DNA from: Aliiroseovarius sp. Z3
Lineage (GTDB): Bacteria > Pseudomonadota > Alphaproteobacteria > Rhodobacterales > Rhodobacteraceae
Assembly (NCBI RefSeq): GCF_029105185.1
Contig: NZ_JAFMZK010000003.1
Location: 62,001 to 126,000, forward strand
DNA: 64,000 nt
Direction of reading: 5' to 3'
Shown: positions 26,384 through 47,390 of the stretch, piece by piece
Numbering within the stretch: the stretch's first letter is position 1
Layout: each line of letters starts with the position of its first letter
Notes under the pieces: generated by a model
Seen by the model: the letters and a program-made list of their open reading frames with translations, nothing else
Database searches by the model: none
Told to the model about the DNA's origin: nothing
Program-made: the position numbers and the translations under genes

Positions 26384-26697
26384 GAGGTCTCCGGTTCGGA
26401 AATGGAAATGTCACAAAGGCTTTGGGCCCAATTGAAACACAGTCGGCCTGGTATTGCATCACATCTCAATGATAGCTTCCGACCGGCTCGTTCATTTCCG
26501 GATCGCTGCCCTTTCTGCCCCTGACACGACGATTTGCTGCCACCGACCCTCTGTGTCTTGACGATGTCTGTTGCCTTCTTTCTTCCGCACGTCGCTGATA
26601 CAAAAAACCGCGCGCAGTTGCGGGGCTTGCAAAATTCGTGAAGCATTTCCCTGACAAGGTCGCGCGCGACCAAGGTGCACGCGGAAAGGTGGAAGCT
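26384..26697. other. 314-base gap before phaC
   Basis: No convincing gene is seen. Short open frames on the minus strand here continue into the phaC coding region in antisense and lack binding sites. The segment should hold the phaC promoter and the promoter of the small membrane protein; no clear operator was recognised. Confidence 0.4.
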
Positions 26698-28320: not shown

Positions 28321-28323
28321 CGC

Positions 28324-29154
28324 ATGAAAGATCTGAACGCCCCCAGCGCGCATCCTGACATCACATTCAACACCGTCACGGTCGGCGATACCTCTGTCCG
28401 TTATTTGCAGCGCGACGGTGTGGCGGGTTCACCGCCCCTGTTGATTTTCAACGGGCTGGGCCAGTCGTTAGAAGTTCTGTTGCCGCTGATCGACGAGTTG
28501 AAAGACCGCTCCATCGTCGCCTTCGACATGCCCGGCATCGGGCGCACCCCGATGATCGAGGATATCACCACAATTCCCGATTATGCCAAGTTTACCTTGC
28601 GCCTTCTGGACGAACTGAAAATCGAAACTTTCGATGTGCTTGGTATTTCCTGGGGTGGTGCGGTTGCCCAGCAATTGGCGCGAGACGCATCCAGCCGCGT
28701 GAACAAGCTGGTGCTGGCGATCACATCAGCGGGTGGTATCGGCAGTTGGTGGGGCACCCCCATTGCCCTGTCTGAAATCATGTTTCCGATGCGCTATATC
28801 AGCAAAACCTACGGGAACTTTATCGGTCCTTTGATGTATGGGGGCGAGGCGATCTTTGCCCCCGCCGATTTCCGCGAATACTCAAAACACGCCATCGCGC
28901 CCAGCCCGGAAGGGTATTTCACGCAGGTGCGCGCCATGTGCAGCTGGACCAGCCTGCCATGGCTGCGCCAGCTGTCGCAAAAAACCCTGATCATCGCGGG
29001 GCAATATGATGGGCTGATCCCGATCACCAACCAAATCCTGCTGGCCAACATGATGCAGAATGCCCGGCTTGAGGTTTATCCCGCCGGGCATTTGCTGATG
29101 TATTCCCAGCGCAAGGATGTGGGCGTGACCATCGGCGCATTTCTGGGCGGCTGA
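28324..29154 (+). CDS. phaZ: Alpha/beta hydrolase, probable intracellular PHA depolymerase
   Basis: A 276-residue alpha/beta hydrolase with LIFNGLGQS near residue 40 (oxyanion region), nucleophile Ser109 in LGISWGGAVAQQ, Asp in IAGQYDGLIP and His in YPAGHLLMYS. These features and the pairing with phaC match medium-chain-length PHA depolymerases (PhaZ) of pseudomonads, which mobilise stored polymer. The gene starts 3 bases after phaC in the same operon. No phasin or phaR is in the window. Confidence 0.8.
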   Translation: MKDLNAPSAHPDITFNTVTVGDTSVRYLQRDGVAGSPPLLIFNGLGQSLEVLLPLIDELKDRSIVAFDMPGIGRTPMIEDITTIPDYAKFTLRLLDELKIETFDVLGISWGGAVAQQLARDASSRVNKLVLAITSAGGIGSWWGTPIALSEIMFPMRYISKTYGNFIGPLMYGGEAIFAPADFREYSKHAIAPSPEGYFTQVRAMCSWTSLPWLRQLSQKTLIIAGQYDGLIPITNQILLANMMQNARLEVYPAGHLLMYSQRKDVGVTIGAFLGG

Positions 29155-29216: not shown

Positions 29217-30740
29217 TTAGAAGAAGCCCAGCTTGTTGGGGTTGTAGCTCATCAAGATGTTCTTGGTCTGCTGATAATGACCCAGCATCATCTTGTGGTT
29301 CTCGCGTCCGATGCCCGATTGCTTATAGCCGCCGAAGGCCGCATGTGCCGGATAGGCGTGATAGTTGTTCACCCAGACACGACCGGCTTCGATCGCACGG
29401 CCAAAGCGATAGCAACGGTTGGCGTCGCGCGACCAGACGCCAGCCCCAAGGCCGTACATCGTGTCATTGGCGATCGCCAGGGCTTCCTCTTCATCTTTGA
29501 ACGTGGTCACGGAAACGACCGGGCCAAAGATTTCCTCTTGGAAGACGCGCATCTTGTTGTGGCCTTTCAGGATCGTCGGTTGGATATAGTTACCGCCTGC
29601 AAGTTCACCGTTAAAACGGGCCGCATCGCCACCGGTCAGCACTTCTGCACCTTCTTCGCGACCGATGGTCAGATAGGACAGGATCTTTTCTTGCTGTTCG
29701 GTCGAGGCTTGCGCACCAACCATGGTTTCCGGGTTGCGCGGATCGCCGTGCTTGATCGCTTCGACGCGCTTGATGCAGCGGGCGATGAACTCGTCATAGA
29801 TGTCTTCCTGGATCAGCGCACGCGACGGGCAGGTGCAGACCTCACCCTGGTTGAAGGCAAACAGCACGAAGCCTTCGACCGCCTTGTCAAGGAAAGCGTC
29901 GTCTTCGGCCATGATGTCCGAGAAGAAGATGTTGGGGGACTTTCCGCCCAGCTCCAGCGTCACGGGGATCAGGTTGACCGTTGCGGCCTCCATGATCTTG
30001 CGACCGGTTGCGGTCGAGCCGGTGAAGGCGATCTTGGCAATACGGTTGCTGCGGGCCAGTGCGTCGCCGACCTCGGCACCGAAACCATTGACGATGTTCA
30101 GAACACCGGCTGGCAGGAATTCATTCATGATCTCGGCAAGGATCATGATCGCTGCCGGGGTTTGTTCGGCGGGTTTCAGCACGATACAGTTGCCAGCCGC
30201 CAAAGCCGGGGCCAGCTTCCACGCCGCCATCAGGATCGAGAAATTCCACGGAATGATCTGGCCAACAACACCCAGCGGTTCGTGGAAGTGATAGGCGATT
30301 GTGTCCGAGTCAATCTCGGACATATTGCCTTCCTGACTGCGCAGGACGCCAGCGAAATAGCGGAAATGGTCCACCGCCAGCGGAATATCTGCGGCCATTG
30401 TTTCGCGGATCGGCTTGCCGTTGTCCCATGTTTCCGCTTGGGCGAGACGCTCCAGATTGGCCTCGATTGCATCGGCCATTTTCAGGATCAGGTTCGACCG
30501 CTCGGCCGCCGAGGTTGCGCCCCATGCGTCTTTGGCGGCATGTGCGGCATCCAGAGCCAGTTCAATATCAGCAGCGTCAGAGCGTGCACATTCGCAAATC
30601 TTTTCGCCCGTGATCGGGGTCACATTGTCGAAATACTGCCCGTTTACCGGCGGCGTGAACTTCCCGTTGATGAAATTGTCATAGCGGTCAGCGAAAGGCG
30701 ACACATAGGTGCCTGCCTCGGTATGAGTCATGTCGTTCAT
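29217..30740 (-). CDS. exaC: NAD-dependent aldehyde dehydrogenase, ExaC/AcoD type
   Basis: Cytoplasmic aldehyde dehydrogenase of 507 residues that oxidises acetaldehyde or similar aldehydes. Visible are the [20 protein letters not shown] cofactor region, [12 protein letters not shown], catalytic Glu in [12 protein letters not shown], and a Cys region where [12 protein letters not shown] carries the catalytic Cys. The C-terminus YNPNKLGFF is characteristic of ExaC-type enzymes. Start 30740 has AAGGAGG upstream. In pseudomonads ExaC acts after the quinoprotein ethanol dehydrogenase ExaA. Here the dehydrogenase and its regulators lie just upstream on the same strand, with a 105-base promoter gap. 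Confidence 0.92.
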
Positions 30741-30845
30741 GATTGTCCTCCTTGATTCCCGAAACCTCCATCGGGCTACGTCATAATTTGACGCGTCAGA
30801 GGGCATGTGTCTGTGCGACTTTAGGCTAATACGTCGCCGAACGTG

Positions 30846-33071
30846 TTAAGCGGAGGGCGTCTTCAATCGTGCCAGATACTCGCGCAGCAATTTCGGTTGC
30901 AGCGGCTTGTAAAACAGCTTCACGTCTTCCTCGGCGGTTTTTGTCACAAGGTGATCCGACCGATTGGCGGTGATCAAGGCGGCAGGTATTTGACCATGAG
31001 CGGCGCGCAAAGCACGGATCGCGTGCATACCGGTATATCCGTTGTCCAAATGATAATCTGCCAGAATGACATCCGGGACCACGCCGATTTCCTGTATGAT
31101 TACATCCGCTTGCTCTAGATTCTCAGCTTCGATCGGGCTTGCGCCCCAACTGTCCAGCAGGGTCATCATGCCAAGCCGGACCGCAGCCTCGTTTTCGATG
31201 ACAAGGGGGATCATGTCCGTCAAGGCCACCCGGTCGATGCCCGGCTCGACCGGCGGGGCAACATCTGCCGCGCCTTGCGGTTTGTGGAAGGGAACACGAA
31301 CGGTAAAGCGGGTGCCCACACCCTCGACGCTTTGCAGTGTCAGATCATGCCCCAGCAAATCGCAGGCCCGGCGCACGATGGCAAGACCAAGACCCATGCC
31401 CGGTGCGGTCTCGGCCGGGCGCTTGATCCGGTGAAATTCGTGAAACACCCGGTCATGCTGGTCGTCGGGTATGCCCTGCCCGGTATCAATCACCTCGATC
31501 AATGCGTCCGTTCCCCGACGGCGCACCCCAACCAGAACCTTGCCCCTGTCCGTGTATGACACCGCGTTTGCCGCCAGATTCTGGATGATCCGGCGCAAGA
31601 AGGCCGGGTCACTTTCGACATCAAGACCACAGTCAACCACATGAAACTGTACCCCCTTGGCGCGGGCCAGCGCCTGAAACTCTTCACGCAACGGCACAAG
31701 CAACCGGCTGAGCGGAAAGACCGAGATATTTGCCTGCGTGCCCGCGTCCAGTTTGGAGATGTCCAGAAGCGCGCCCAGAATGGTTTCGACACTGTCAAAA
31801 GCACTTTTCACACGGCCTGCGATCTGTGACTGCTCTGGGTTCAAATCGGCTTCCTCAAGCGACGAAATGAACAGCTTGGCTGCATTCAAGGGTTGCAACA
31901 GATCGTGGCTCGCGGCCGCAAGAAACCGCGATTTTGACGTGTTCGCGCGCTCGGCGGCATCGCGGGCCTTTTGCATCTCGGTCGTGCGTTCCTGGACGCG
32001 CAGTTCCAGCGTCTCGTTCATTTCATGCAAGGCAGCGGTCGTGGCGCGTTCGTCCGTCACATCGGTAAAGCTGATCACGAACCCGTTGTCGGGGGTCATA
32101 TCGCTGAACACATCCAGAATCGTGCCATCCGCGCGGTGCAGTTCGACTTTCAATGGATCGCGGGTCCGGCGGTTCTGTACCCATTGCACCAGCGTCTGTG
32201 GCGCTTTGGGCATTGCAAACCCCTGGGTGTCTGCAAAGTAAGACACGAACCGTTCAAAGCTGGTTCCAGCCCGCATCAACTCCATCGGTGGGCTCATCAG
32301 ATCCTGAAAGCGGGCGTTCCACCCGGCAAGCCGATCTTCCTCATCGAAGATGCACACACCCTGATTGATATGGTCCAAAGTCGCCCGCACGATCTTGGCC
32401 TGATCGTCCAGAAGTTTGTCACGCTCCTGCCGCGCCTGCCGAACCATGTCAGTCACTTCGGTCTGAAGAATGGCCGTGCCATCATTGGGTGTGCGCTGCT
32501 GGCTGATCTGAACCCAGCGATCGCCCTTTATCTCGACAACAAAATCCGCGTGCTTCTGGGTCAGCTTCGTCGCCCTGTCGCGACGCCAGACCCAAGGGGT
32601 GACATCCTTTGCAAGCACCAAAGCCGAGCTGTTCGACACTTTCTCGAAATAACTATCCAGCGTCAGCCCCGGCGCGATATCTGACACAACGTCGGGAAAC
32701 ATGCGGGCGAACCGCTGGTTCGACAGGATCAAGCGGCCAGCGGCATCGAACAGCGCAAACCCTTCCCTGACGGCCTCAAGCGCGCCCGCCAAATCGGCAC
32801 GCGCGTTTTCGGCTTCAACCTTCGCATCCGCCAGATGCGCCTTGGACTGGTTCAGCTGGGCAAGCGCGACTTCCAGATCCTGCGTGCGCGCCTTGACCTG
32901 CTCTTCAAATTCAACCGCCGCCTGGAAATAGGCATAGCTGTCAAAACTCTCGTCACCCCCAGCTTCGACACGGCGCATCAGAACATCAACGATACGCTGA
33001 AGTTTTTCCAACTTGCGCTCGGCCCCATCGTCGGGCCGCAGAAGCGGGACGGGGGACAGGCCGCTAGTCAT
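30846..33071 (-). CDS. Hybrid sensor histidine kinase, NahK/ErcS-prime-like
   Basis: A 741-residue soluble kinase. It has an N-terminal coiled coil (about 45-100), two PAS domains (about 100-215 and 230-345), a HisKA box with phosphoacceptor His389 in FLAAASHDLLQPLNAAKLF, a HATPase domain (about 490-600, DTGQGIPDDQHDRVFHEFHR), and a C-terminal receiver with Asp672 in VILADYHLDNG. No membrane segments are seen. The layout matches Pseudomonas NahK/ErcS-prime. It overlaps the FIST gene by 8 bases, so the pair is a sensor-kinase unit, and the adjacent LuxR-type regulator is the likely phosphorelay partner (inference). Confidence 0.88.
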   Translation of the reverse strand: MTSGLSPVPLLRPDDGAERKLEKLQRIVDVLMRRVEAGGDESFDSYAYFQAAVEFEEQVKARTQDLEVALAQLNQSKAHLADAKVEAENARADLAGALEAVREGFALFDAAGRLILSNQRFARMFPDVVSDIAPGLTLDSYFEKVSNSSALVLAKDVTPWVWRRDRATKLTQKHADFVVEIKGDRWVQISQQRTPNDGTAILQTEVTDMVRQARQERDKLLDDQAKIVRATLDHINQGVCIFDEEDRLAGWNARFQDLMSPPMELMRAGTSFERFVSYFADTQGFAMPKAPQTLVQWVQNRRTRDPLKVELHRADGTILDVFSDMTPDNGFVISFTDVTDERATTAALHEMNETLELRVQERTTEMQKARDAAERANTSKSRFLAAASHDLLQPLNAAKLFISSLEEADLNPEQSQIAGRVKSAFDSVETILGALLDISKLDAGTQANISVFPLSRLLVPLREEFQALARAKGVQFHVVDCGLDVESDPAFLRRIIQNLAANAVSYTDRGKVLVGVRRRGTDALIEVIDTGQGIPDDQHDRVFHEFHRIKRPAETAPGMGLGLAIVRRACDLLGHDLTLQSVEGVGTRFTVRVPFHKPQGAADVAPPVEPGIDRVALTDMIPLVIENEAAVRLGMMTLLDSWGASPIEAENLEQADVIIQEIGVVPDVILADYHLDNGYTGMHAIRALRAAHGQIPAALITANRSDHLVTKTAEEDVKLFYKPLQPKLLREYLARLKTPSA

Positions 33072-34248
33072 CCGGTTGATCCGCAGAATAAATCGCCACG
33101 CCAGTGAAAGTCTGGTTCACGTGCAGCATGTTGATCTGTTCGCCATAGGTGTGAAATCCGATGACATTGTTGTCAGACAGGATCGACGAAATCTTACCCT
33201 TTGCCTGAATCTGGTCGATCTCAAGCCGCCGCAGGATACATTCGCAGGCGATGATGGCATCCGGCTTGCCATTCTCAGAAAGCTTCGCCATCTCGCGCTC
33301 CAGATGCGCCACGATGTCATCGGCCACCGCAACGGTCAGCACCAGCCCTTCGTCGATGGCGCTGAAAAACCGCAGCTCGCCGGTCGCTTCGACCTTCTGG
33401 ATCGACCGAACGTGATAACGCCCACCGACCTGCACCATCACAGGGCTGGCGGCAAAGACGAACGGCGACAACTGCCCGGGATCCTTGCCCACCATGCGCG
33501 CATATTCTGCCGCAGCGGGTTCGGCATTGATTTCGCGCACCAACCGTGCTTCCGGGTCGGCACCGGTGACAACCATCCGCGTGTCCGTTGGCAGGAAATG
33601 GTCGAAATGGAAGACTTTGATGCGGCAGCGCGTGCGAAACACCGTCAGGATCGAGGCCCGCTGGTGGAATTTCCCACCATGGAAAATCGCGGTTTCGGTG
33701 AAGTTCAGGCCATCCCCGGCTGACCCGCCAAACAGTTGTACGGTGCCCAGCGCCGGGTTGATCAAAGACACAATCCTGTCTTCGTTGCGCGCCAACCCGT
33801 CATTCAACAGAAATGCAAACTCGCTGGTCCAATCCGGGGCCTGCCGCGCCACATCATTCAACTGATCCAGTACACGCAGCGGCACCGCACTTTGGGCGTC
33901 CTTTTCTGTATGATCGAAAAACTGGACCGAGGCGCAGAAATGCGCGGCGGGAAACCCGACTGCGACGATCTGATGTTCTGAAATACCGTCCGGCGTGATC
34001 TCTCCGGCGGTGGTGCACCCAATGACTTTCACCCCTTCGAAAACACTGTTCAGCGCATCAGCAGTATCCTGGTTCAGAAATTCGGGCGACAAAAACACAG
34101 CGACAAGGGCGAAGGTGGCATCGCCCAATTGCGTGCGCAGATCCTGCACGGCGGCAAGGCTGTCGGTTTTATCGGAAGACGCCTTTTGCACCAAACGGCC
34201 AAAGTCGGGCAACGCAGATTGTGTTTGACGCGGTGCTATCACGGCCAC
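33064..34248 (-). CDS. FIST-domain signal sensor, NosP-like
   Basis: A 394-residue protein with FIST_N (about 30-230; VIGCTTAGEITPDGISEHQI, LFGGSAGDGLNF) and FIST_C (about 230-380; ending in NVIGFHTYGEQINMLHVNQT). FIST proteins are sensory input modules. In P. aeruginosa a FIST protein, NosP, is a haem-based NO sensor encoded next to the kinase NahK, which it inhibits. This gene sits in the same relation to a NahK-like kinase. Haem binding and NO response here are inference. It starts with GTG at 34248 after GGAGG and is coupled to the kinase by an 8-base overlap. Confidence 0.85.
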   Translation of the reverse strand: MAVIAPRQTQSALPDFGRLVQKASSDKTDSLAAVQDLRTQLGDATFALVAVFLSPEFLNQDTADALNSVFEGVKVIGCTTAGEITPDGISEHQIVAVGFPAAHFCASVQFFDHTEKDAQSAVPLRVLDQLNDVARQAPDWTSEFAFLLNDGLARNEDRIVSLINPALGTVQLFGGSAGDGLNFTETAIFHGGKFHQRASILTVFRTRCRIKVFHFDHFLPTDTRMVVTGADPEARLVREINAEPAAAEYARMVGKDPGQLSPFVFAASPVMVQVGGRYHVRSIQKVEATGELRFFSAIDEGLVLTVAVADDIVAHLEREMAKLSENGKPDAIIACECILRRLEIDQIQAKGKISSILSDNNVIGFHTYGEQINMLHVNQTFTGVAIYSADQPDD

Positions 34249-34271: not shown

Positions 34272-34967
34272 TCAGACCACCTTATCCGAATTCGCGATCG
34301 TGTCGAACTTGGCTTTCTGCGCGACCAGAACCGCCTGAGTCCGACTGTGCACACCCAGCTTGCGCAGGATGGCGGTCATGTGCGCCTTGACCGTGGTTTC
34401 AGCAATCGACAGGTCATAGGCGATCTGTTTGTTCAGCTTGCCTTCGCAAATCAGGCGCAGAATGCAGGCTTGTTGCGGGGTCAGGGATGCAAGACGGGCC
34501 GGCGCGTCATCTGTGTCCGACCCGTCATTATCGACAGGAGCGATGTAGTCGGCAGGTGTGTAGATGCCACCATCGCGGATCTGTCGAAATGCCTCGGTAA
34601 TCATTGCCTTGTCAGAATCCTTGGGAATAAAGCCCGAAGCACCGGCGCTTAGAACACTTGTGACGATCGCGCTGTCCGACAGGGACGAGACGACAATGAC
34701 CGGTGTATCCGGAATGGCTGATTTCAGGCGCACCAGCCCGTCCAGACCATCGACATCCGGCAAGTTCAGGTCCAACAACACGATATCCGGGGCGTCCCGC
34801 CCTTTGAGAAGGCTCAGAGCCTCGGTCAGATTGTTGGCCATAATCACTTCTGGCACCGACAACGCGCCGCGTAAGGTCATCGACAGCGCCTCGCAAAACA
34901 GGGGGTGATCATCGACAACCAGAACCTCCTTCAACGCAGGACGGTGAATTGGTTGAATAGACGCCAT
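34272..34967 (-). CDS. LuxR/NarL-family response regulator (ErbR/ExaE/AgmR-like)
   Basis: A 231-residue regulator. The receiver domain has DD at 19-20 and phosphoacceptor Asp66 in IVLLDLNLPDVDG, followed by VSSLSD and IPKDSD. A C-terminal LuxR HTH (about 160-220) reads LTPQQACILRLICEGKLNKQ, then IAYDLSIAETTVKAHMTAIL. It is transcribed first in an operon with the FIST and kinase genes. Homologues ErbR/AgmR control quinoprotein ethanol oxidation in pseudomonads, so it is the best candidate to bind the repeated TACGACC sites of this region (inference). AAGGAG precedes ATG 34967. Confidence 0.9.
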   Translation of the reverse strand: MASIQPIHRPALKEVLVVDDHPLFCEALSMTLRGALSVPEVIMANNLTEALSLLKGRDAPDIVLLDLNLPDVDGLDGLVRLKSAIPDTPVIVVSSLSDSAIVTSVLSAGASGFIPKDSDKAMITEAFRQIRDGGIYTPADYIAPVDNDGSDTDDAPARLASLTPQQACILRLICEGKLNKQIAYDLSIAETTVKAHMTAILRKLGVHSRTQAVLVAQKAKFDTIANSDKVV

Positions 34968-35145: not shown

Positions 35146-36912
35146 TCAGTTGGCGGCAGCCAACTGACGTGGCAGCTTGAAAGTCCAGAGCATTCCGCCT
35201 TGGTTCAGGAAGCTGACCTCTTTCGCCACTTCGCCACCCCAGAGCGGCACAGCACCACCCCAGCCGGAAATAACCGAGACATATTGCTCGCCATCCTGCT
35301 CCCAGGTCACAGGCTGACCGACGATGCCGGATCCGGTCTGGAACGACCACAGCTCTTCGCCCGTTTCATCATCGAACGCGATGAATTTGCCTTCCGGTGT
35401 GCCAGTGAACACCAGCCCACCCGCCGTGGTCATCACACCACCCCAAAGCGGTGCCGGGTTCTTGAACTCCCACTTGATCTCACCGCTCAGCGGATCAATT
35501 GCTTTCAGCGACCCGATATGATCCTCGAACAGCGGCTTGATGGTGAAGCCCGCGCCCAAATAGGCCGCGCCCTGTTTGTAGGAAATCGGCTCGTTCCAGA
35601 TATCCATGCCCCATTCGTTTGACGGCACATAGAACAGCCCGGTCTTCTGGCTGAACGCCATCGGCATCCAGTTCTTACCGCCAAGGAAGGACGGAACGGC
35701 AAAGATTGTCTCGCCTTTGTTGCCTTCGGTCGCGGCCGTCGGATCACCGGGGCGATTATCCTCGTTGTAGATCGGACGCCCGGTCTCATCGATACCCGAA
35801 GCCCACGTAATGTCTTTGACGAAGGGGTTGGCCGTCACGAACGACCCATCCTCGCGGTTCAGGACATAGAAGAACCCGTTCCTGTCGGCAGTGGCGAAAT
35901 AGTCCTTCCCATCCTGACCGGTGAAGGCGACGACCTCGTTCACACCGTCAAAATCCCAGCCTTCACGTGGGGTTGTCTGAAAATGCCACTTGATCTCGCC
36001 GGTTGCGGGGTCAATACCAAGGCGGCTGGCGGCATAGAGGTTATCGCCCTTGTTGCCTTCCACCGGGGTGCCTGCGTTGCGCAAATGGCTGTTCCATGGG
36101 GCCGGGTTGCCTGCGCCAAACACAAGCGTGTCGGTGTCCGCATCATAGGATCCGCCCAACCAGGTTGCCCCGCCACCGGTTTTCCACATATCGCCGGGCC
36201 ATGTGGCATTCAGTTCGCCGGTCATGGTGCTTTCTTCACCATTCAACGTGCCCATGTGACCTTCAATCACCGGACGGGTCCAGACCAGGTCACCGGTTTC
36301 GGCATCGCGTGCCTGAACCTCGCCAACCACGCCGAATTCACCGCCGGAATTGCCGGTAATAACCAAACCGTTCACGATCAATGGGGCGGCCGTATAGGAA
36401 TATCCAGCCTTGTAGTCGGCGATCTTCTTGTTCCACGCCACATCACCCGTTTTCAGGTCCAGCGCCACAATCCGGGCGTCCAGCGTGCCGAAATAGATCT
36501 TGTCGCCATAAATGGCACCACCGCGGTTCACAACATCACAGCAGGGCAAAATGCCTTCGGGCAGACGCGCGTCGTACTGCCAAAGCTCTTGCCCTGTCAA
36601 AAGATCAATCGCGTAGAGCCGCGAATATGACCCGGTGATGTACATCACCCCGTCATAGATCAGCGGCTGCGTTTCCTGACCGCGCTGCTTCTCGCCACCC
36701 AGCGAAAAGGCCCAGGCGGGCACCAGGTTATTGACGTTGTCCTTGTTCAGGATATCCAGCGGGCTATAGCGTTGAAGGTGCCGCCCCATACCGTTGGTGA
36801 CGATCTGGTTGGTAATCGTCTGATCATTTCGAAGATCATCCTCGGTCACCTCGGCCTGCGCGATCCCCGCCGCAATCAGGCCAACCGTGACAGTTGTTAA
36901 AAACTTGTTCAT
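35146..36912 (-). CDS. exaF: PQQ-dependent alcohol dehydrogenase with lanthanide-type Asp-x-Asp site
   Basis: Periplasmic quinoprotein of 588 residues (signal peptide to about residue 20), an eight-bladed propeller. Vicinal cysteines 124-125 in GILPCCDVV form the disulfide over PQQ. Glu192 (SGGEFG), Asn269 (GAGNP) and catalytic Asp320 are the metal/active-site positions. Residue 322 is also Asp ([11 protein letters not shown]), the extra ligand that marks lanthanide-using enzymes (XoxF, ExaF, PedH); calcium enzymes have Ala or Ser there. Start 36912 follows GGGAGG. A cytochrome c gene lies upstream on the same strand. Symbol exaF is by analogy; xoxF-like naming is possible. Confidence 0.9.
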
Positions 36913-37147: not shown

Positions 37148-37570
37148 CTATTCGGAAATCGCAGTCCCATCGCGCATTGAAATGCTGTCCAAGTAAGCCA
37201 GGATGAAATCCTGTACGGTCCGATCTTCAATTCCGACGTGACGCATCTTGGTTCCGGGCATGAACCCGTCATTATCCTCGATCCACGCGCGCAATGCAGC
37301 CTGCGTCCAGACAATGCCGGACGCCTCAAGCGCGACCGAGTAATCATAGCCGTCATAGCTGCCTGCGGCTCGATTCAGAATGTTTTCCAACGGCGGGCCA
37401 TAGCTGTCGTGATCTGCATCCGGGGCGTGACATCGTCGGCACTCGGCCACAAACAGTTTTTCTCCTGCTTCGATCTTGATGTCGTCGAATGCGGACTCCG
37501 CCGCCGCTTCGATGGGTGCCCCGCCAGCAAGCGCGACGCCAAATAACAACGAGGTCAGGGTTTGCTTCAT
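37148..37570 (-). CDS. Periplasmic c-type cytochrome (XoxG/ExaB-like candidate)
   Basis: A 140-residue class I cytochrome c. It has a signal peptide (about 1-25, ending APIEAAA), haem motif Cys44-Arg-Arg-Cys47-His48 in VAECRRCHAP, and axial Met in PGTKMRHVG. Start 37570 is chosen because GGAGA lies seven bases upstream. It lies 235 bases upstream of the PQQ dehydrogenase on the same strand, so it is a natural electron acceptor for that enzyme (inference). Confidence 0.88.
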   Translation of the reverse strand: MKQTLTSLLFGVALAGGAPIEAAAESAFDDIKIEAGEKLFVAECRRCHAPDADHDSYGPPLENILNRAAGSYDGYDYSVALEASGIVWTQAALRAWIEDNDGFMPGTKMRHVGIEDRTVQDFILAYLDSISMRDGTAISE

Positions 37571-37659
37571 ATCAATCTCCAATATGCATCACCCGGCAGA
37601 GCCGGTTTGTTATTCGCGCTTTCATCCGATGTAGAACAGCAACACAGACGGCTTGCATA

Positions 37660-37724: not shown

Positions 37725-38702
37725 ATGAAAACCATCTTGCAAAGAATGACCGCCGTGCTCTCGGTCGCCCTGACCACCGCGCTGTCCCCCGCTTTTGCCG
37801 GACCCGATGTCCTTCGGGCGTCGGTTCTGGAGTTTGGGACCGTGAATTGGGAGCTTGATACAATCAAGTCTAACGGGCTGGACACCGCGAACGGTTTCAC
37901 GTTGGAGGTGACGGGTGTCGCAGGGGGTGCCGCCGCCAAGGTCGCGTTTGAAGCAGGCGAGACAGATGTCATCGTATCCGACTGGCTGTGGGTTGCCCGG
38001 CAACGAGCGGCAGGACGTGACTTTGTGTTCCTGCCCTATTCCAAAGCGGTTGGCGGATTGATGGTGCCAGCAGACAGCACCGCGCAGACCCTGGCCGACC
38101 TTAAAGGTGGCAAGATCGGCATCGCGGGTGGTCCGCTGGACAAAAGCTGGTTGATCCTGCGCGCCTATGCGGATCAGCAATACGAGCTGGATCTTGTGGA
38201 AGAAACCGAGCAAGTGTTCGGTGCGCCGCCCCTGATTTTCAAAACCGCCACCTCCGGCGACTACGACGGTGCGATCAACTTCTGGCACTTCATGGCCAAG
38301 ATGGAAGCGGGAGGGATGCGCCAGCTGGTGTCCGTCTCTGAAGCCGCTGAAGCGCTTGGATTAGACCCTAACACGCCCCTACTGGGCTATGTGCTGCGTG
38401 GTGACATGGCGCGGGAGAACCCCGATTTGGTCGCTGGTCTGTCTGCTGCATCCCGGGCGGCGAAAGAGCTTTTGATGCAAGACGCGGCGTGGGAACCACT
38501 GCGCGAACGGATGCGGGCCAAAACGGATGCACAGTTCAAAGCACTGATCGCCGGATTTCGCGCTGGCATCCCCGACCCCGGCCCGGTCGATGAAGGCGCC
38601 GCTGACAAGATTCTGCGCCTGATGGCCAAGCTGGGCGGAACGGACCTGTTGGGTGATGTCGAATCATTACCGGCAGGGGTGTTCCTGACGCCGGGAAGTT
38701 GA
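37725..38702 (+). CDS. ABC transporter substrate-binding protein (nitrate/taurine-type)
   Basis: A 325-residue periplasmic protein. A signal peptide (about 1-25, ending SPAFA) is followed by a NitT/TauT-type two-lobe fold with GVAGGAAAKVAFEAGETDVI, SDWLWVARQRAAG, LADLKGGKIGIAGGPLDKSW and GAINFWHFMAKME. The ATPase gene follows directly. The probable permease lies 8 kb away at 47,443 and also carries the shared operator. The ligand is unknown; because the region serves a PQQ enzyme, the cofactor, a lanthanide complex, or an alcohol-derived compound are possibilities (inference). Confidence 0.85.
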   Translation: MKTILQRMTAVLSVALTTALSPAFAGPDVLRASVLEFGTVNWELDTIKSNGLDTANGFTLEVTGVAGGAAAKVAFEAGETDVIVSDWLWVARQRAAGRDFVFLPYSKAVGGLMVPADSTAQTLADLKGGKIGIAGGPLDKSWLILRAYADQQYELDLVEETEQVFGAPPLIFKTATSGDYDGAINFWHFMAKMEAGGMRQLVSVSEAAEALGLDPNTPLLGYVLRGDMARENPDLVAGLSAASRAAKELLMQDAAWEPLRERMRAKTDAQFKALIAGFRAGIPDPGPVDEGAADKILRLMAKLGGTDLLGDVESLPAGVFLTPGS

Positions 38703-38704
38703 CC

Positions 38705-39358
38705 ATGACCGCGGCGGATCACGCTGTCTTCGGCAGCACAGAGGGGGCAATTACGCCTTCTGGCGCCGACGTCGTGTCTTTGGATCTGACATCTGCCAGC
38801 TATGGCAGCACGCAAGTTCTGGGCAAAATTAAACTGCGGCTCAAACCCCATGAAACGGTGGCAATATGCGGGCCATCCGGTATCGGAAAGTCTACTCTTT
38901 TGCGTATTCTGGGTGGATTAGAGACTGGTTTTTGCGGTGAGATTAACACGCCCGACCGTCTGGCCTTCGTGTTTCAGGAACCAATCTTGTTGCCGTGGCG
39001 GTCGGTGCGGGACAACCTTGTGCTGACCACTCAGATCAGCACCGAAGAAGCTGACGCGGCCCTGGCTGATGTCGGATTGTCGCATTGCGCCGACCGGCAG
39101 CCCGATCAGCTGTCACTTGGCCAGCAGCGGCGCGTGGCACTGGCGCGTGCCTTCGCACTGCGCCCACAGCTCCTGTTGTTGGATGAACCCTTCGTATCGC
39201 TTGACCCAGACCTAAGCGACGAGATGATGCGGGTGTTCGAACGTCTCCGCGCCCGGTCAAATGTGGCAACTGTGCTGGTGACACACACAACAAACGAGGC
39301 ACACAGATTGGCCGACCGCATCTTGACCTTGCACGGATCGCCGGCATTGCTTGTGTAG
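38705..39358 (+). CDS. ABC transporter ATP-binding protein (nitrate/taurine-type)
   Basis: A 217-residue ATPase with Walker A AICGPSGIGKSTLLRILGG, Q-loop FVFQEPILLPW, signature LSLGQQRRVALARA, Walker B LLLLDEPFVSLD and VTHTTNEAHRLAD. The EPxLLPW Q-loop is typical of SsuB/TauB. ATG 38705 is preferred; a TTG two codons earlier overlaps the stop of the binding protein. No permease follows; the next gene is convergent. Confidence 0.88.
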   Translation: MTAADHAVFGSTEGAITPSGADVVSLDLTSASYGSTQVLGKIKLRLKPHETVAICGPSGIGKSTLLRILGGLETGFCGEINTPDRLAFVFQEPILLPWRSVRDNLVLTTQISTEEADAALADVGLSHCADRQPDQLSLGQQRRVALARAFALRPQLLLLDEPFVSLDPDLSDEMMRVFERLRARSNVATVLVTHTTNEAHRLADRILTLHGSPALLV

Positions 39359-39363
39359 ATCGA

Positions 39364-40155
39364 CTAGACCTTCCGCCGGATCATCCCACGCGCAGGGTCA
39401 TAACCCCAAAGCGCAAGCAACAGAAACACCAGTCCCGCCACAGCGGTCCATACCGCCGCCATCAGATTGAATTGTGCGTAAAGGGCAAAGCGGATCAACT
39501 CGACCGCATGAGTAAACGGGTTCACGGCGCAGATATCGTGCAGAACCCGCGAACTTTCGGCCATCTTCCACAGAGGATACAGCGCCGAAGATAGGAAGAA
39601 CATCGGGAAGATAACGAAATTCATCACACCCGCGAAGTTCTCCAATTGCTTGATCAGAGAGGATAGCGCCAGCCCCAGTGCGCCCAGCATCATCCCGGCA
39701 ACGATTAAAGCTGGAAACACCAACGCATAACCAAGCATCGGCAGTTGAATGCCGAAAACAGCGGCGATCGCCAGAAAGCAATAGACCTGTAAGATCGAGA
39801 TCAAAGTACTTGCGATCAATCGACATGTCAGCAGCCACCAGCGTGGCAAAGGCGACGTCATAAGCAACCGCATCGACCCCATTTCGCGGTCATAGACCAA
39901 GGATAGAGACGATTGCATGCCGTTGAACAACAGGATCATGCCACATAAACCGGGCACGATATAAACCTCGTAGGTAATATAGGTCTGATAGGGCGGACTG
40001 ATCGACAGGCCCAGCGCCGCGCGGAACCCGGCGGCGAAAACCAAAAGCCAGATCAGCGGGCGCACAAGGGCCGAGATGAACCGCCCCCGCTGCCGCACAA
40101 ATCGTAGAGCTTCGCGGAGCACGATGGCCCGCAGGGCGATCAGGGCGGGGGTCAT
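39364..40155 (-). CDS. ABC-2 type permease of the PQQ alcohol dehydrogenase system
   Basis: A 263-residue membrane protein with about six segments, of the ABC-2 (DrrB/NodJ-like) exporter type; FNGMQSSLSLVYDREMGSMR is the family loop. It overlaps the ATPase gene by 4 bases. In Pseudomonas ped/exa-type clusters an ABC-2 permease (PedC-like) with ATPase, binding protein and beta-propeller protein accompanies quinoprotein alcohol dehydrogenases. Its cargo is unknown. Confidence 0.85.
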   Translation of the reverse strand: MTPALIALRAIVLREALRFVRQRGRFISALVRPLIWLLVFAAGFRAALGLSISPPYQTYITYEVYIVPGLCGMILLFNGMQSSLSLVYDREMGSMRLLMTSPLPRWWLLTCRLIASTLISILQVYCFLAIAAVFGIQLPMLGYALVFPALIVAGMMLGALGLALSSLIKQLENFAGVMNFVIFPMFFLSSALYPLWKMAESSRVLHDICAVNPFTHAVELIRFALYAQFNLMAAVWTAVAGLVFLLLALWGYDPARGMIRRKV

Positions 40156-40874
40156 GTTGCTTCCTCACCCGTCATCTGAAGAAACACCTCTTTCAGCGGG
40201 CGGCCACAGGTGACATCTGAAACCTGCCCTTCCGCGCGCACCTGCCCACGATCAAGGATCACCAACCGATCCCGCGTCCAAACCTCATCCGTCAGATGGG
40301 TGGCCCAGAGAACGGTCAAATCGCTTTCCGCAGCCAGCTCATGCACGTGAGTTACGATCCCGTTACGCGACGCCGCATCCAGCCCAACCGTGGGTTCGTC
40401 CAGCAACAACACCGCCGGATCATGCAGCAATGCGCGGGCAATCTCGGCCCGGCGGCGGTGGCCACCATTCAGATCACGGGCCCGTTCCTGCGCCCGTTCA
40501 GCCATGCCCAGACGATCCAGCGCCGCATCGGTACGCCGCGCGGCGTCCCGACCCCCAATCCCATGTAACGCGGCGAAATAGTGAAGGTTTCGGCGCACCG
40601 TCAGATCAAGATCCAGCGTCTGTTGCTGAAACACGATCCCGATCTGCGCCAGTGCCGCGCGCGGGTTTTTCCCCAGATCAAAGCCAGCAATCTCGATCCG
40701 CCCCCGATCAGTGGTGAACAGTCGGCTCATTAGGCCAAACAACGTGGATTTGCCTGCCCCGTTCGGCCCGAGAAGCGCACAGAATTCGCCCGGTTCAACC
40801 GAGAAGCAGACGTCTTTCAACGCCTGCTTTTGGCCGTAGTGATGGCTCAGGTTATGAACCCTGAGACCGTTCAT
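40152..40874 (-). CDS. ABC transporter ATP-binding protein of the PQQ alcohol dehydrogenase system
   Basis: A 240-residue ATPase. Walker A is LLGPNGAGKSTLFGLM and the Q-loop is GIVFQQQTLDLDLTV. The signature region reads RDLNGGHRRRAEIARALL, with LNGGH in place of LSGGQ as in this subfamily, and Walker B is VLLLDEPTVGLD. It is coupled by 4-base overlaps both to the permease and to the 148-residue protein before it. It matches the family annotated as the ATP-binding subunit of a PQQ-dependent alcohol dehydrogenase ABC system. Confidence 0.9.
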   Translation of the reverse strand: MNGLRVHNLSHHYGQKQALKDVCFSVEPGEFCALLGPNGAGKSTLFGLMSRLFTTDRGRIEIAGFDLGKNPRAALAQIGIVFQQQTLDLDLTVRRNLHYFAALHGIGGRDAARRTDAALDRLGMAERAQERARDLNGGHRRRAEIARALLHDPAVLLLDEPTVGLDAASRNGIVTHVHELAAESDLTVLWATHLTDEVWTRDRLVILDRGQVRAEGQVSDVTCGRPLKEVFLQMTGEEAT

Positions 40875-41317
40875 TCGATGGTGATATCCAGCCTCTGTGT
40901 GTCACCGGAAGACCCCGGAACGGACAGCGCGTAGCGCCCCGGCTTGATGGCTAGGAAACCTATTTCCATGGTGCCAGCTTCATCGAATTCGACACTATCA
41001 AGGCCCAATGGGCGGATTTCCAACCCTTCGATCACGATCTCATCAATCCAGATTGCGCGAAAGAAGCCAGCGCCTTCAAGGGCAAGTTCCTGACTGCCAT
41101 CCGCCTCGATCTCGATCTCGTAATAGGTGCCGGATTTCAACAGCAAAGGCGCATCGGCCAAGGGCATGCCAGACGACAGTTGAATCGGCGGCAGGTCTTC
41201 TTTGTTATTCGCGGACAAGACCCCGGCAAGACCGAAACTGTCCTGATCCGCCCACGCCCGTGCTCCGCCGAGGGAGGCGGCGAGGCACGCGGACAGCAAG
41301 AAAGTGGAGATACGCAT
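40871..41317 (-). CDS. Exported small protein of unknown function in the ABC operon
   Basis: A 148-residue protein with a clear signal peptide (about 1-23, ARAWA). The mature part is beta-rich and acidic, with repeated G-x-Y-x-x-x and E-L-x-L-E patterns (SGTYYEIEIEADGSQELALE; IKPGRYALSV) that resemble a cupredoxin-like sandwich, though no copper ligands can be assigned. It is not recognised as a characterised family. AAGGAA precedes the ATG, and its stop overlaps the ATPase start, so it is part of the operon. Confidence 0.75.
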   Translation of the reverse strand: MRISTFLLSACLAASLGGARAWADQDSFGLAGVLSANNKEDLPPIQLSSGMPLADAPLLLKSGTYYEIEIEADGSQELALEGAGFFRAIWIDEIVIEGLEIRPLGLDSVEFDEAGTMEIGFLAIKPGRYALSVPGSSGDTQRLDITIE

Positions 41318-41338
41318 GATGGGTTCCTTTCAAAATTC

Positions 41339-42295
41339 TCATGGACGAAGGGCTGCACCCCACGGAAAGCGCCCGACCTTGATGGATTTGACGGCTTCAC
41401 GGCGGGCCACGTCGATGACGGTGACGTCACCCGACACGCCGTTGGTGGTGAACAACAGGGATTTGTCTGCGGAAAACGCCATGTGCCAGACCCGGCGGCC
41501 GACCAGGATGTAATCCTCGACCTCATAGGTTTCGGCGTTGACCACCGCGACGTGGTTCGACGGCCCAAGGGCGACAAAGGCGGTCTTGCCGTCTTCGGTA
41601 AATTCAAACCCCACGGGCTGCACCCGATCGAGATGCACGCCCTGGACCTCGAACTTCATATCTGCCAATTCGGCCTGCGTTTCCGTATCAAAGACCGAGA
41701 TCGTGCCGCCAATTTCAGAACTGACCCAGAGCGCCGCGCCGTCATGTGTGAACTCGGCGTGGCGCGGGCGGCTTTCGACCAGCGTGTTGGCGAAAATCTC
41801 GTGGCTCTCGGTGTTGATCCAATGCGCCATATTGGTGGTTTCAGAAGTCGCGATCACGGTGCTGCCATCGGGCGACACCGCCATCCCTTCAGGCTCAATC
41901 CCCACATTGATCTGGGCCACGACTTTCCGGGTCTCAACGTCCACAACCGTGGTGACGGCGTCGTCTTCGTTGGCGATGTAAAGGTGACGGTCATCAGGGT
42001 GCAGCACGAACTGTTCGGGATCTTCGCCCGAGGGCAGATCATTCAGAATCTTCCCGGTCTCGGGGTCCATCACCTGAACCGCATCGCTGTCGGACGCGCA
42101 GATATAGACTCGGCTGAAATCATGCGAGAACGTTATACCGCGCGGGCGTTCACCGGTTGGAATGGTGCGCGTGACTTCCAGCGTGGCGACATCAATCACA
42201 CTGATCGTGTCGTCCTTCTCGTTCGTGACCCAAATTTCTTCAGCGTATGAAGGGGTCGCCAGAAGCATTCCAAGCAAGGTTAGTGTCTTTTTCAT
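41339..42295 (-). CDS. YVTN-type beta-propeller protein, PQQ-catabolism associated
   Basis: A 318-residue periplasmic protein with a signal peptide (about 1-18, PSYA) and about seven YVTN/PQQ-like propeller repeats, for example VTNEKDDTISVIDVATLEV, YICASDSDAVQVMD and FTTNGVSGDVTVIDVAR. It matches the family annotated as PQQ-dependent catabolism-associated beta-propeller protein; its exact role is unknown. It follows the binding-protein gene by one base and has GAGGA before ATG. Confidence 0.88.
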   Translation of the reverse strand: MKKTLTLLGMLLATPSYAEEIWVTNEKDDTISVIDVATLEVTRTIPTGERPRGITFSHDFSRVYICASDSDAVQVMDPETGKILNDLPSGEDPEQFVLHPDDRHLYIANEDDAVTTVVDVETRKVVAQINVGIEPEGMAVSPDGSTVIATSETTNMAHWINTESHEIFANTLVESRPRHAEFTHDGAALWVSSEIGGTISVFDTETQAELADMKFEVQGVHLDRVQPVGFEFTEDGKTAFVALGPSNHVAVVNAETYEVEDYILVGRRVWHMAFSADKSLLFTTNGVSGDVTVIDVARREAVKSIKVGRFPWGAALRP

Positions 42296-42296
42296 A

Positions 42297-43463
42297 CTAG
42301 TCCTCGTATGCGGTGCATTGGCTTTCGGGCTGGTCCAGACCCAGGCTGTCCAACTCGTTGCGTTGGTGCAGAAACCCCTCTAGCGGGGCTTGGGCAACCA
42401 GCGCACGGGACGTGGACAAGGGAATGGGTTGGCGCAGCTGGCCGTTCCATTTACGGAAGCTCATGGAGCGGCCTTTGAAACCCGCCAATTCGAACTCATC
42501 AGACAGAATGTAGGCCCGCAGGACATCTGGCGCGGCGCTTCCGGTGCGCGTCACAGCCTCGCCAATCGTGCGGATGGCGGCCCATGCGGCATAATCCTGT
42601 GGGCGCATCGTGCGCCCTGCACCATCTGTGAAGCGACTTTGCAACTGGGCCGCGCCCCATTGCTCTACCACCGGGGACCACGCCGCCGGAACGACGCCTT
42701 CGGTGCCGACAACAGGCCGTGCAAGCCATGTATTGTAGGGAATGTACCGCCCGTAATCATCGCGCGTATCTGCCACCAAAAGCACATCGTGATCGCCAAG
42801 GTCTTGCGTAAAGACGGGCACTTCCTGGGCGGCATTGCGACGCATGTCAGTATCAAAGTTCCACGCTTTCTCGGCCGCGATGCTCAGCCCGTATTTCTCG
42901 GCTGATGCACGAAACACATCTGCAAGCGCCGCATCCTTGTCATGGGCACCCGATATCATCGCCAACCGCACCCATTTCTTCTTTACGAGAAACTGCATCA
43001 GGGCATCCGCGCGCATCGCATCTGATGGCAGCGTGTGAAACACATTGGCGCGGCAATCGGCATTGCGCAGCGCCACGTCCGCAGCCGCCACGTTCAGCAG
43101 GATTGCACCTTGCGCCTCGGGCATATCGGCAATTCGCAGCAGCGCGGCAGCAGGCGCGTCTACTATCAAGAGCGATGAGACTGCCAACATATCCCGAGCA
43201 GCGGCGAGCACATCCCCTCCCACCGGCACATCAGTATGGCTCAGGGTGTATTCGTGGCCCAGAAAGCCACCCGTCGTCTGGTTGTCAGCCAAACCCACCT
43301 GCGCACCCGCAAGCCCCAGATCGTCCGGCACCGGATCGAGATTCGACAAGACAGGTGGCCGGTCGAGCATCTGGCGCAGATAGCCCACCTTGACCGAAAC
43401 CTCGGCTTGCAATGACGAAACCGACAGCCAGAAAATGACGCTGGTGTAAGCAATCAGCCGCAT
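42297..43463 (-). CDS. ABC-type substrate-binding protein of the PQQ alcohol dehydrogenase system
   Basis: A 388-residue periplasmic protein with a signal peptide (about 1-20, SLQA) and a type I periplasmic-binding fold (branched-chain amino acid receptor like). Segments include GLAGAQVGLADNQTTGGFLG, ADCRANVFHTLPSDAMRADA, and DHDVLLVADTRDDYGRYIPY. It is the first gene of the operon with the propeller, the small unknown protein and the ABC-2 ATPase and permease. AGGAAAAC precedes ATG. Pairing a type I binding protein with an ABC-2 exporter-like permease is odd but is known in PQQ clusters. Confidence 0.87.
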   Translation of the reverse strand: MRLIAYTSVIFWLSVSSLQAEVSVKVGYLRQMLDRPPVLSNLDPVPDDLGLAGAQVGLADNQTTGGFLGHEYTLSHTDVPVGGDVLAAARDMLAVSSLLIVDAPAAALLRIADMPEAQGAILLNVAAADVALRNADCRANVFHTLPSDAMRADALMQFLVKKKWVRLAMISGAHDKDAALADVFRASAEKYGLSIAAEKAWNFDTDMRRNAAQEVPVFTQDLGDHDVLLVADTRDDYGRYIPYNTWLARPVVGTEGVVPAAWSPVVEQWGAAQLQSRFTDGAGRTMRPQDYAAWAAIRTIGEAVTRTGSAAPDVLRAYILSDEFELAGFKGRSMSFRKWNGQLRQPIPLSTSRALVAQAPLEGFLHQRNELDSLGLDQPESQCTAYED

Positions 43464-43646: not shown

Positions 43647-44330
43647 ATGCTGAACAAGCATTTGCTGACCATCGGTTTTATCGCGCTGGCTGGTTTTGCC
43701 TATGCGCATGGTGACGTTGCACCGCAGCCGGTTGACACCGACGCTTTGCCAGATGTGGGCGAGGAATGGTTGATCGAAAACCCGTATCGCGATGCCGGAC
43801 CCGAGGTCTGGCAACTGGCCGTCGATATCGGCAACAGTGGCTATACCCAGAACTGCGCGCGCTGTCATGGGCTGGGTGTCGTGTCGGGCGGGTTGGCCCC
43901 CGATCTGCGCTATCTGGAAGCGGCGGAATATGGTGATGAATGGTACGTTGAGCGATTCCAGCACGGTATGACCCAGAACGGAATCACCAAGATGCCTGCG
44001 TTTGGCGAATTGCTGGGCCAGAAAGCCGCGTGGGCCATCCGAACCTATATCGAAGCCCGCCCGGATGACGGCGCGCTGGATGAGTTTGAGGATCGGCTGA
44101 AGACCTTCCGCGACCAGCTTGCGGCGTGGTCGGACAACGCCCCGGAAGCTAACGAGGTATCTCAGCTGCAAGAAGAGCTGGCGGCAATTGCCGCAAAGGT
44201 TGAAACCGGATCCGGCGCCCCGATTGCTGACAGCGTCGCTTATCGTGCGGCGGCGCTTATTTCTGGCGATCAGCCAAAATTCAAGCAGGCGGCCGAGACC
44301 CTGACCATTGGGTTGTCCGCAGCCGAATAA
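43647..44330 (+). CDS. pedF: Cytochrome c-550 PedF-like
   Basis: A 227-residue periplasmic cytochrome. It has a signal peptide (about 1-20, FAYA) and the mature N-terminus HGDVAPQPVDT typical of PedF. The haem motif Cys70-Ala-Arg-Cys73-His74 is followed by GLGVVSGGLAPDLRY, and TKMPAFG supplies the axial Met. A helical C-terminal part of about 90 residues extends past the haem domain. Family members accept electrons from quinoprotein alcohol dehydrogenases. GGAGGA precedes ATG, and the MxaJ-like gene follows in the same operon. Confidence 0.85.
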   Translation: MLNKHLLTIGFIALAGFAYAHGDVAPQPVDTDALPDVGEEWLIENPYRDAGPEVWQLAVDIGNSGYTQNCARCHGLGVVSGGLAPDLRYLEAAEYGDEWYVERFQHGMTQNGITKMPAFGELLGQKAAWAIRTYIEARPDDGALDEFEDRLKTFRDQLAAWSDNAPEANEVSQLQEELAAIAAKVETGSGAPIADSVAYRAAALISGDQPKFKQAAETLTIGLSAAE

Positions 44331-44345
44331 GATGGGGTGAAGCAT

Positions 44346-45248
44346 ATGATGCGCAATGGGTTGAGCCTTTGCCTGATGGCGACCGTGTTCACGGTCCTGG
44401 GCGGTGCTGCCCATGCGCGTTGTGAAGATCATGTGCCCCAAGCCAAACCTCAGAACACCGCGCGCGATATTGTCGGCACCGATCTGGACACGATCGTCGA
44501 GCGCGGTTTCATCGAGTTTGCCGCCTATCGCGACTTCCCCCCTTGGTCGTTTGAAAAGGATGGCAAACCCACCGGAGTCGACATCGAGATCGGCAAAGTG
44601 ATCGCTGAATACCTTGGTGTCGACGCACGGTTCAACCTGGTCGCCGCTGGCGAAAATCTGGACGAGGATCTGCGCAATTGGGTTTGGAAAGGTCCAATCA
44701 TAAGCGGTCGCGTCGCCAATGTGATGCTGCATGTCCCCTATGACAGCAACTATGCCTGCCGTGTTGAACAGGTGGTATTCACCGGTCAGTATCACGTTGA
44801 AGGCATCGCCATCGCCTATCGCAAGGATGTCTATCCCGACGACGCGCCGGTGCCGGCCTATTTCCGATATGATCAGGTGGCGGTGGAAAATGACACGATT
44901 GCCGATTTCTATCTGACCAATCTTCTGGGGCCGCAGGCCGGACCGAACATCCACCGCTTTCCCACAATGGGCGATGCGATGGCGACCCTGTCGGACGGGC
45001 AGATCGGTGCCGCCATGGGGCCACGCAGCCAGTTGGAATATGGGCTGACCGGTGACAGCGTCGTTCACGAACCACCGATGCCGGGCTTTGGTGTGGGCAA
45101 GTGGACGCTGGGCGTCGGCGTTCACTTTGCGTATCGCCCGCTGGCCTATAGTGTGGATGACGCCATCCAGGCGGCGATCAGCGATGGTCGAATGGCCCGG
45201 ATCTTTGCCGATTACGGGCTGACCTTTTCCCCCCCAGAACTGCGCTGA
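44346..45248 (+). CDS. MxaJ/XoxJ-like quinoprotein-associated periplasmic binding protein
   Basis: A protein of about 300 residues with a signal peptide and a type II periplasmic-binding fold (AAYRDFPPWSFEKDGKPTG, VDIEIGKVIAEYLGVDARF, GRMARIFADYGL). It belongs to the quinoprotein-dehydrogenase-associated binding protein family that includes MxaJ and XoxJ, thought to help assemble or activate the dehydrogenase rather than serve transport. Start ATG 44346 follows GGGGTGA; a GTG at 44337 is an alternative. It lies 15 bases after pedF. Confidence 0.82.
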   Translation: MMRNGLSLCLMATVFTVLGGAAHARCEDHVPQAKPQNTARDIVGTDLDTIVERGFIEFAAYRDFPPWSFEKDGKPTGVDIEIGKVIAEYLGVDARFNLVAAGENLDEDLRNWVWKGPIISGRVANVMLHVPYDSNYACRVEQVVFTGQYHVEGIAIAYRKDVYPDDAPVPAYFRYDQVAVENDTIADFYLTNLLGPQAGPNIHRFPTMGDAMATLSDGQIGAAMGPRSQLEYGLTGDSVVHEPPMPGFGVGKWTLGVGVHFAYRPLAYSVDDAIQAAISDGRMARIFADYGLTFSPPELR

Positions 45249-47338: not shown

Positions 47339-47374
47339 GTCTTTCAAACTAGTTGCGTGCCCGCGCTTGCGACA

Positions 47375-47390
47375 TACGACGTTGGTCGCA
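47375..47390. promoter_or_regulatory. Putative shared operator between NosR-like gene and ABC permease
   Basis: TACGACG-TT-GGTCGCA: 6 of 7 in each half. The 11 bases CGACATACGAC that include it are also present at the 43,526 site. It is centred 44 bases before the NosR-like start and about 60 before the permease start. Confidence 0.55.

Follow-up and report, generated by a model that had tools for sequence, protein, structure and literature searches.

The closest described system to the one analysed here is that of Pseudomonas putida KT2440, in which the PQQ-dependent alcohol dehydrogenase PedH (PQQ-ADH type 2b) is described as having an aspartate at the position where PedE has a calcium-coordinating serine, and as being active with lanthanides (PMC5487730). 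In the same bacterium, the loss of the PedA1A2BC importer is reported to raise about 100-fold the lanthanum needed for PedH-dependent growth (PMC6839425), and P. aeruginosa PAO1 is described as having no REE-dependent dehydrogenase and as being without the PedA1A2BC transporter (PMC12997753). An ocean survey gives the lanthanide motif for 61% of 6,328 marine PQQ dehydrogenases, and rare earth at about 1e-11 M in seawater (PMC11996626). With respect to the cofactor, PQQ enzymes in organisms lacking PQQ synthesis are known, as in E. coli, and the account of the PqqU survey depicts the Alphaproteobacteria as likely primarily producers (PMC12124388). In Methylobacterium extorquens, itself a PQQ maker, the protein PqqT is reported to bind PQQ with a Kd of 50 nM and to help in its capture (PMC12124388, PMC12828617).

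We have analysed a window of 64,000 nucleotides from Aliiroseovarius sp. Z3, in which the minus-strand gene running from its ATG at 36912 to the stop at 35146 encodes a PedH-type PQQ alcohol dehydrogenase of 588 amino acids, with boundaries identical to those of the initial annotation; the plus-strand reading of 35146–36912 is interrupted by stops, and inspection by eye evidences a signal-peptide-like stretch at the N-terminus. The protein scores 776.5 bits against TIGR03075, the PQQ-dependent methanol/ethanol dehydrogenase family (curated cut-off 480). Its best matches among solved structures are PedH of P. putida (6zcv/6zcw; 842 and 838 bits), to which it is 64.8% identical over 565 residues, and then ExaA of P. 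aeruginosa (1flg; 696 bits), with 57.4% identity and the same fold; the entries which we take to be XoxF and MxaF score 317–333 and about 250–275 bits, respectively. The lanthanide motif initially proposed at Asp320-x-Asp322 is borne out by HMMER, in whose gap-free alignment both residues (codons 35953–35955 and 35947–35949, spanning 35947–35955 on the minus strand) fall within a GWDFDGVNE stretch that PedH shares letter for letter, whereas in the same alignment the calcium enzyme ExaA reads WDFSGNNE, with a serine in place of Asp322. Same-fold controls from the bacterial family read D-x-S (L031), D-x-A (L054) and D-x-T (L034).

The phylogeny is in line with the motif. In a tree of 19 rows, assembled without ExaF and PedE, our enzyme, together with its relatives, falls in one clade with PedH (support 96/93, starred), whereas ExaA joins the D-x-S enzyme of G002, a member of the same bacterial family, in a separate starred clade (100/100). 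The protein thus belongs to the PedH/ExaF lanthanide clade (type 2b), as D-x-D replaces D-x-S/A/T and as the tree places it with PedH, a proven lanthanide enzyme, and away from the calcium enzyme ExaA. Along with Asp320 and Asp322, residues Glu192 (36337–36339, minus strand) and Asn269 (36106–36108, minus strand), which are putative metal ligands by the role of these residues in the enzyme family, are unchanged in 32/32 aligned enzymes, a set made of our enzyme and 31 relatives picked from 69, three of them just 35–39% identical. The AlphaFold model has pLDDT below 50 at the metal site (residues 190–193 and 316–324), and for this reason no metal-site geometry was taken from it. That the enzyme is of the lanthanide-dependent type, as the initial annotation had put forward, is at the level of sequence well supported by its position in the PedH clade, the invariant set of four residues and the PedA1A2BC genes that lie alongside.

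Taking together the gene content, the motif, the clade, the missing pqqB, pqqC and pqqE and the missing TonB plug and barrel matches, all of which are presented below or above as observations, we consider it likely that this bacterium carries out lanthanide-dependent periplasmic alcohol oxidation on PQQ made by other microbes, the use of lanthanide, the uptake of PQQ and its route, and the substrates being predictions. The genome comprises 3.52 Mb in 11 contigs and is 99.99% complete, and in it the enzyme is the sole match to itself at an E value of at most 0.001. This search thus gave no XoxF and no calcium partner of the PedE kind and, the enzyme being the only match, no calcium back-up was found. 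This contrasts with the PedH system of P. putida, from which the present one differs in that neither a partner like PedE nor PQQ-synthesis genes were found.

We have extended the analysis to 149 genomes of the bacterial family, one per genus and with our own included, reading the motif site in enzyme matches of about 160 bits and over. Orthologues with at least 78% identity occur in 30 of the 149 and carry D-x-D in 30/30 cases, which argues against a chance occurrence of the motif. A XoxF-like D-x-D enzyme is present in 19 of the 149 genomes, five of which also have PedH, and a twentieth (G008) has a fragment. In a scan of named genomes, the best 80 of at least 464 loci with a relative of the PqqT homologue described below were inspected for an enzyme within 10 kb: 70 have a match, 69 of these are readable at the site and 69/69 read D-x-D, three of the readable enzymes being only 33–37% identical. 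The ten loci with no enzyme match comprise six that end at a contig edge and four with full flanks (L092, L139, L148, L164). As a separate observation, distant quinoproteins also read D-x-D, in six of eight cases (L055–L062) in loose alignments; among L056–L061 and L171, which come from G014, G048, G074 and G042 and read D-x-D, genomes G014, G048 and G074 are yet without PedA1 over the cut-off, so that D-x-D in those families may not imply a PedA1-type lanthanide supply.

The cofactor sets a distinct scenario. Profile searches of the genome for three proteins of PQQ synthesis, PqqB, PqqC and PqqE, returned no match for PqqC, a best score of 29 bits for PqqB (cut-off 245) and one of 61.6 bits for PqqE (cut-off 381). 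The PqqE-like matches were rejected as PQQ synthesis, as the genes at the two top-scoring places encode NirJ and MoaA. As a positive control, the cut-off of the PqqC profile is exceeded in 31/149 family genomes, and that of PqqB also in 31/149, these being the same genomes except for G008, G047, G110 and G119, in which one gene is broken or partial. With PqqB, PqqC and PqqE all missing, the genome does not class as that of a PQQ producer, and from these profiles the bacterium appears unable to make PQQ; as no PQQ-synthesis genes were found, the enzyme would depend on PQQ from outside.

That the cell makes its own PQQ for an ordinary PedH system, the pqq operon having been missed through a gap in the assembly or the loss of a plasmid, or the synthesis resting on unrecognised genes, seems unlikely to us, although the assembly is in 11 contigs and 16 of the 30 PedH genomes carry pqqC (split in two pieces in G110), several of them on the contig of the dehydrogenase and within about 15 kb of it. 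Against it stand the 99.99% completeness of a genome in which the three genes are all missing and the number of similar cases, too many for gaps alone: pqqC is absent from the other 14 of the 30 PedH genomes and from 27 of 40 named strains taken from the best 80 of at least 464 PqqT loci, 24 of these 27 having a PedH-type enzyme at the locus. The proportion of 27/40 is not a survey figure, because these strains were picked by their PqqT homologue, have no completeness given and overlap in part with the family sample. Cultured relatives without pqqC include Primorskyibacter aestuariivivens, Amylibacter kogurei and Marivita hallyeonensis. The genes pqqB, pqqC and pqqE lie near PqqT in only 2/80 of those best loci (of at least 464). 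On the PedH tree the pqqC state needs eight changes and leaves 15 of the 28 inner branches open, and losses and gains are on this account indistinguishable. In a few genomes the genes are damaged: the pqqC frames of G110 and G047 are split, the PedH frame of G110 contains a stop, and G020 has, beside its PqqT gene, the remnant of an alcohol dehydrogenase gene interrupted by three stops; the impression is of PQQ genes that are decaying.

The setting of a PQQ enzyme with no PQQ synthesis is shared with PqqU-based scavenging, as in E. coli and others, the difference being that no TonB-dependent receptor was found here. In fact, neither the barrel (PF00593) nor the plug (PF07715) profile has a match in our genome, so that no PqqU-type receptor is recognised, and both profiles do match in the controls, namely E. 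coli, Caulobacter and Bacteroides. The plug search of 36 pqqC-minus genomes, comprising 14/14 from the family sample and 22/27 named strains (G151 and G187 were set aside because they probably repeat G099 and G120, and G168, G171 and G184 for having no PedH-type enzyme at the locus), gave no match in 16/36 and one to four matches in 20/36. A PqqU-like receptor is thus possible in pqqC-minus genomes other than our own.

The gene at 37725–38702 (plus strand), separated from the dehydrogenase start by 0.8 kb in which a cytochrome gene lies, encodes a PqqT homologue of 325 amino acids. Among solved structures it has strong relatives only in the PqqT entries 9b1u, 9b1v and 9ooz (E about 1e-62; 1.7e-62 for 9b1u), the titles of which include 'with PQQ and Gd3+ bound' and 'Y161W Variant with PQQ bound', and its identity to PqqT of M. 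extorquens is 39–40%. The predicted model has a mean pLDDT of 91.9, and its top three folds are the structures of PqqT with PQQ, with TM 0.82–0.83 and fold-search E values from 5e-33 to 4e-32; the fold ranked after them is at 3.5e-15. Sequence and fold thus agree on the kinship, and the product is likely a periplasmic PQQ-binding protein. Within it, K140 of the LDKxW motif is kept in 16/16 aligned sequences and would correspond to K142 of PqqT, judging from an offset of 27. In M. extorquens the protein is described as a supplement to own synthesis (PMC12124388, PMC12828617), whereas here it lies beside PedH in a genome with no PqqB, PqqC or PqqE.

An identity of just 40%, within a wider fold class that includes binders of sulfonates and of thiamine precursors, leaves room for a protein sharing only the fold of PqqT and binding something else, such as a different aromatic acid or a product of substrate breakdown. 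We regard this as improbable, as in the fold search 17 orders of magnitude in E-value separate the PqqT structures from the next fold, and in view of the genomes that carry the gene. Counting matches at E 1e-30 or better, PqqT homologues occur in 38/149 family genomes. A D-x-D alcohol dehydrogenase is present in 33 of these, and the other five show a D-x-A enzyme in G083, a broken alcohol dehydrogenase in G020, a split pqqC in G047, and only a weak quinoprotein-like match in G050 and G094 (E 5e-17 and 1.5e-15).

The PqqT homologue is also more frequent where pqqC is missing. Among PedH genomes it is found in 14/14 lacking pqqC versus 8/16 having it (Fisher 0.0027, kinship ignored), and for genomes in which PedH is the only D-x-D enzyme the counts are 14/14 versus 2/10; both of the two pqqC-minus XoxF genomes carry it as well. 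Counted before G008 and G048 were added, 16/16 versus 17/29 results in a Fisher value of 0.003, again with kinship ignored. When the association is examined on the PedH tree, just two independent supported pairs result, with a median p of 1. PqqT is not a scavenger-only gene, since half of the pqqC-bearing PedH genomes also carry it.

Next to the PqqT homologue, the gene at 38699–39358 (plus strand) encodes the predicted ABC ATPase of a PqqT-type transporter, found with PqqT in 79/80 of the best loci (of at least 464). The inner-membrane permease at 47353–48231 (plus strand) is probably part of the same transporter: it is present in 19/80 of the best neighbourhoods (of at least 464) and in some loci lies directly between PqqT and its ATPase. 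The placement of a PqqT-type transporter inside the island is a further difference from the PedH system of P. putida. Since the cofactor is used in the periplasm, a transporter in the inner membrane is unexpected, which counts against our preferred reading, as does the possible existence of a PQQ route via unrecognised genes. We have also considered that the PqqT-type ABC transporter might capture lanthanide–PQQ complexes shed by other microbes, obtaining cofactor and metal in one, and carry them inward for sensing or storage. This is thinkable because PqqT was crystallised with PQQ and Gd3+ together, and it would explain the presence of a transporter in the inner membrane, which otherwise would be of no use to an enzyme of the periplasm; we nevertheless hold it to be quite doubtful.

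The initial annotation had also mentioned accessory transport genes nearby, and these turn out to be the lanthanide importer cluster: by gene content, the four adjacent minus-strand genes at 39364–43463 are PedC, the permease (39364–40155; TIGR03861, 454 bits, cut-off 241), PedB, the ATPase (40152–40874; TIGR03864, 339 bits, cut-off 302), PedA2, a beta-propeller protein (41339–42295; TIGR03866, 526 bits, cut-off 287) and PedA1, the solute-binding protein (42297–43463; TIGR03863, 488 bits, cut-off 414). Between PedB and PedA2 lies a gene for a 148-aa protein of no known family (40871–41317, minus strand), seen in 61/80 of the best loci (of at least 464), which is possibly a further part of the importer. 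A role of PedA1A2BC in lanthanide transport in this bacterium is suggested by the profiles and by the co-occurrence with D-x-D enzymes. Indeed, in the 149-genome sample PedA1 exceeds its cut-off in 44/47 genomes with a D-x-D alcohol dehydrogenase versus 0/102 of the others, a count which leaves out the distant quinoproteins L055–L062 and the G020 remnant and which becomes 44/50 upon adding G014, G074 and G020. On 44/45, the count before the weaker D-x-D matches of G008 and G048 were added, the Fisher value is 3e-37, kinship being ignored. The three D-x-D genomes with no PedA1 over the cut-off are G098 (84% complete), G008 (82% complete), which has a XoxF-like D-x-D fragment at a contig end, and G048, whose D-x-D enzyme has vicinal cysteines and which encodes a diverged PedA1 relative (123 bits, cut-off 414) on the same contig, about 7 kb off. 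That the enzyme works with calcium, D-x-D being a relic or permissive, is very improbable: the ocean survey does call the dependence marked by D-x-D 'at least facultative', and it predicts mixed metal use for a glucose dehydrogenase (PMC11996626), but the calcium reading finds no sequence support in the motif alignment, the D-x-D survey or the tree, PedH, the closest solved relative, is described as active with lanthanides and as having an aspartate instead of the calcium-coordinating serine (PMC5487730), and PedA1 goes along with D-x-D enzymes and is missing in G083, which has pqqC and a D-x-A alcohol dehydrogenase.

The likeness to the P. putida ped cluster goes beyond enzyme and importer, as PedF and genes of the NosP, kinase and regulator types, described for that cluster (PMC12997753), are near the enzyme here too. 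A periplasmic cytochrome c of c-550-like type, likely the electron acceptor, is encoded at 37148–37582 (minus strand; in 36/80 of the best neighbourhoods, of at least 464), and a PedF-type cytochrome c-550 at 43647–44330 (plus strand; TIGR04494, 188.5 bits, cut-off 122). The latter is followed by a family-3 solute-binding protein, named by position as possibly XoxJ/ExaJ-like (44337–45248, plus strand; in 57/80 of the best loci, of at least 464). An ExaC-type acetaldehyde dehydrogenase, predicted for the next oxidation step, is at 29217–30806 (minus strand; NF050026, 912 bits, cut-off 900); an ExaC homologue lies nearby in only 2/80 of the best loci (of at least 464).

Between ExaC and the dehydrogenase there are, on the minus strand, a hybrid histidine kinase (PAS-HisKA-HATPase-receiver) of NahK/PedS1-like type (30846–33071; in 32/80 of the best loci, of at least 464), a NosP-like protein with FIST domains which, at 401 bits, is under the curated NosP cut-off of 450 (33064–34248; in 31/80), and a LuxR-type response regulator resembling ErdR/AgmR, with 185.6 bits and under the cut-off of 390 (34272–34967; in 35/80). 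Upstream of the dehydrogenase, a NosR-like membrane iron-sulphur protein is encoded at 45266–47347 (minus strand; NF046105, 430 bits, under the cut-off of 1000; in 17/80 of the same loci), and the genome also encodes NirJ (heme d1). Nitric oxide may regulate alcohol oxidation in this bacterium. At 26638–29154 of the window, next to ExaC, there are genes which, from the look of their sequences, we presume to encode polyhydroxyalkanoate synthase-like and alpha/beta hydrolase-like proteins, and whose products are a possible sink for the acetyl units from alcohol oxidation.

Returning to lanthanide-dependent alcohol oxidation on PQQ of other microbes, the island would work as follows. Upon entering the periplasm, short alcohols would be oxidised to aldehydes by the PedH-type enzyme carrying PQQ and a light lanthanide, to which Asp322 would provide an extra ligand. 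The electrons would leave via the two c-type cytochromes, the aldehyde would be handled by the ExaC-type dehydrogenase, and PedA1A2BC would carry lanthanide to the cytoplasm, as in P. putida. The PQQ would probably diffuse through porins to get past the outer membrane, given that no TonB receptor was found, and the PqqT homologue would hold it in the periplasm and help to load the enzyme. PQQ is described as small enough to diffuse, inefficiently at low concentration (PMC12124388), and therefore near neighbours, for example in biofilms or on algal surfaces, are the likely setting of the supply. A marine habitat of the bacterium is suggested by its named relatives.

The enzyme itself is to be expected, because its motif, the meaning of this motif and its marine prevalence are published. 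Among the matches listed in the open-licence literature, we found no title or abstract reporting PedH in Rhodobacteraceae lacking pqq genes. If our reading is correct, the view of the Alphaproteobacteria as mainly PQQ producers would be corrected, and the bacterium analysed here may have a double dependence, on a scarce metal and on a vitamin-like cofactor made by others; the reading is directly testable in named cultured strains. Many bacteria of the Rhodobacteraceae type would then oxidise alcohols by the PedH route only when outside rare earth and PQQ leaked by neighbours meet, and lanthanide-dependent carbon oxidation would be a community trait.
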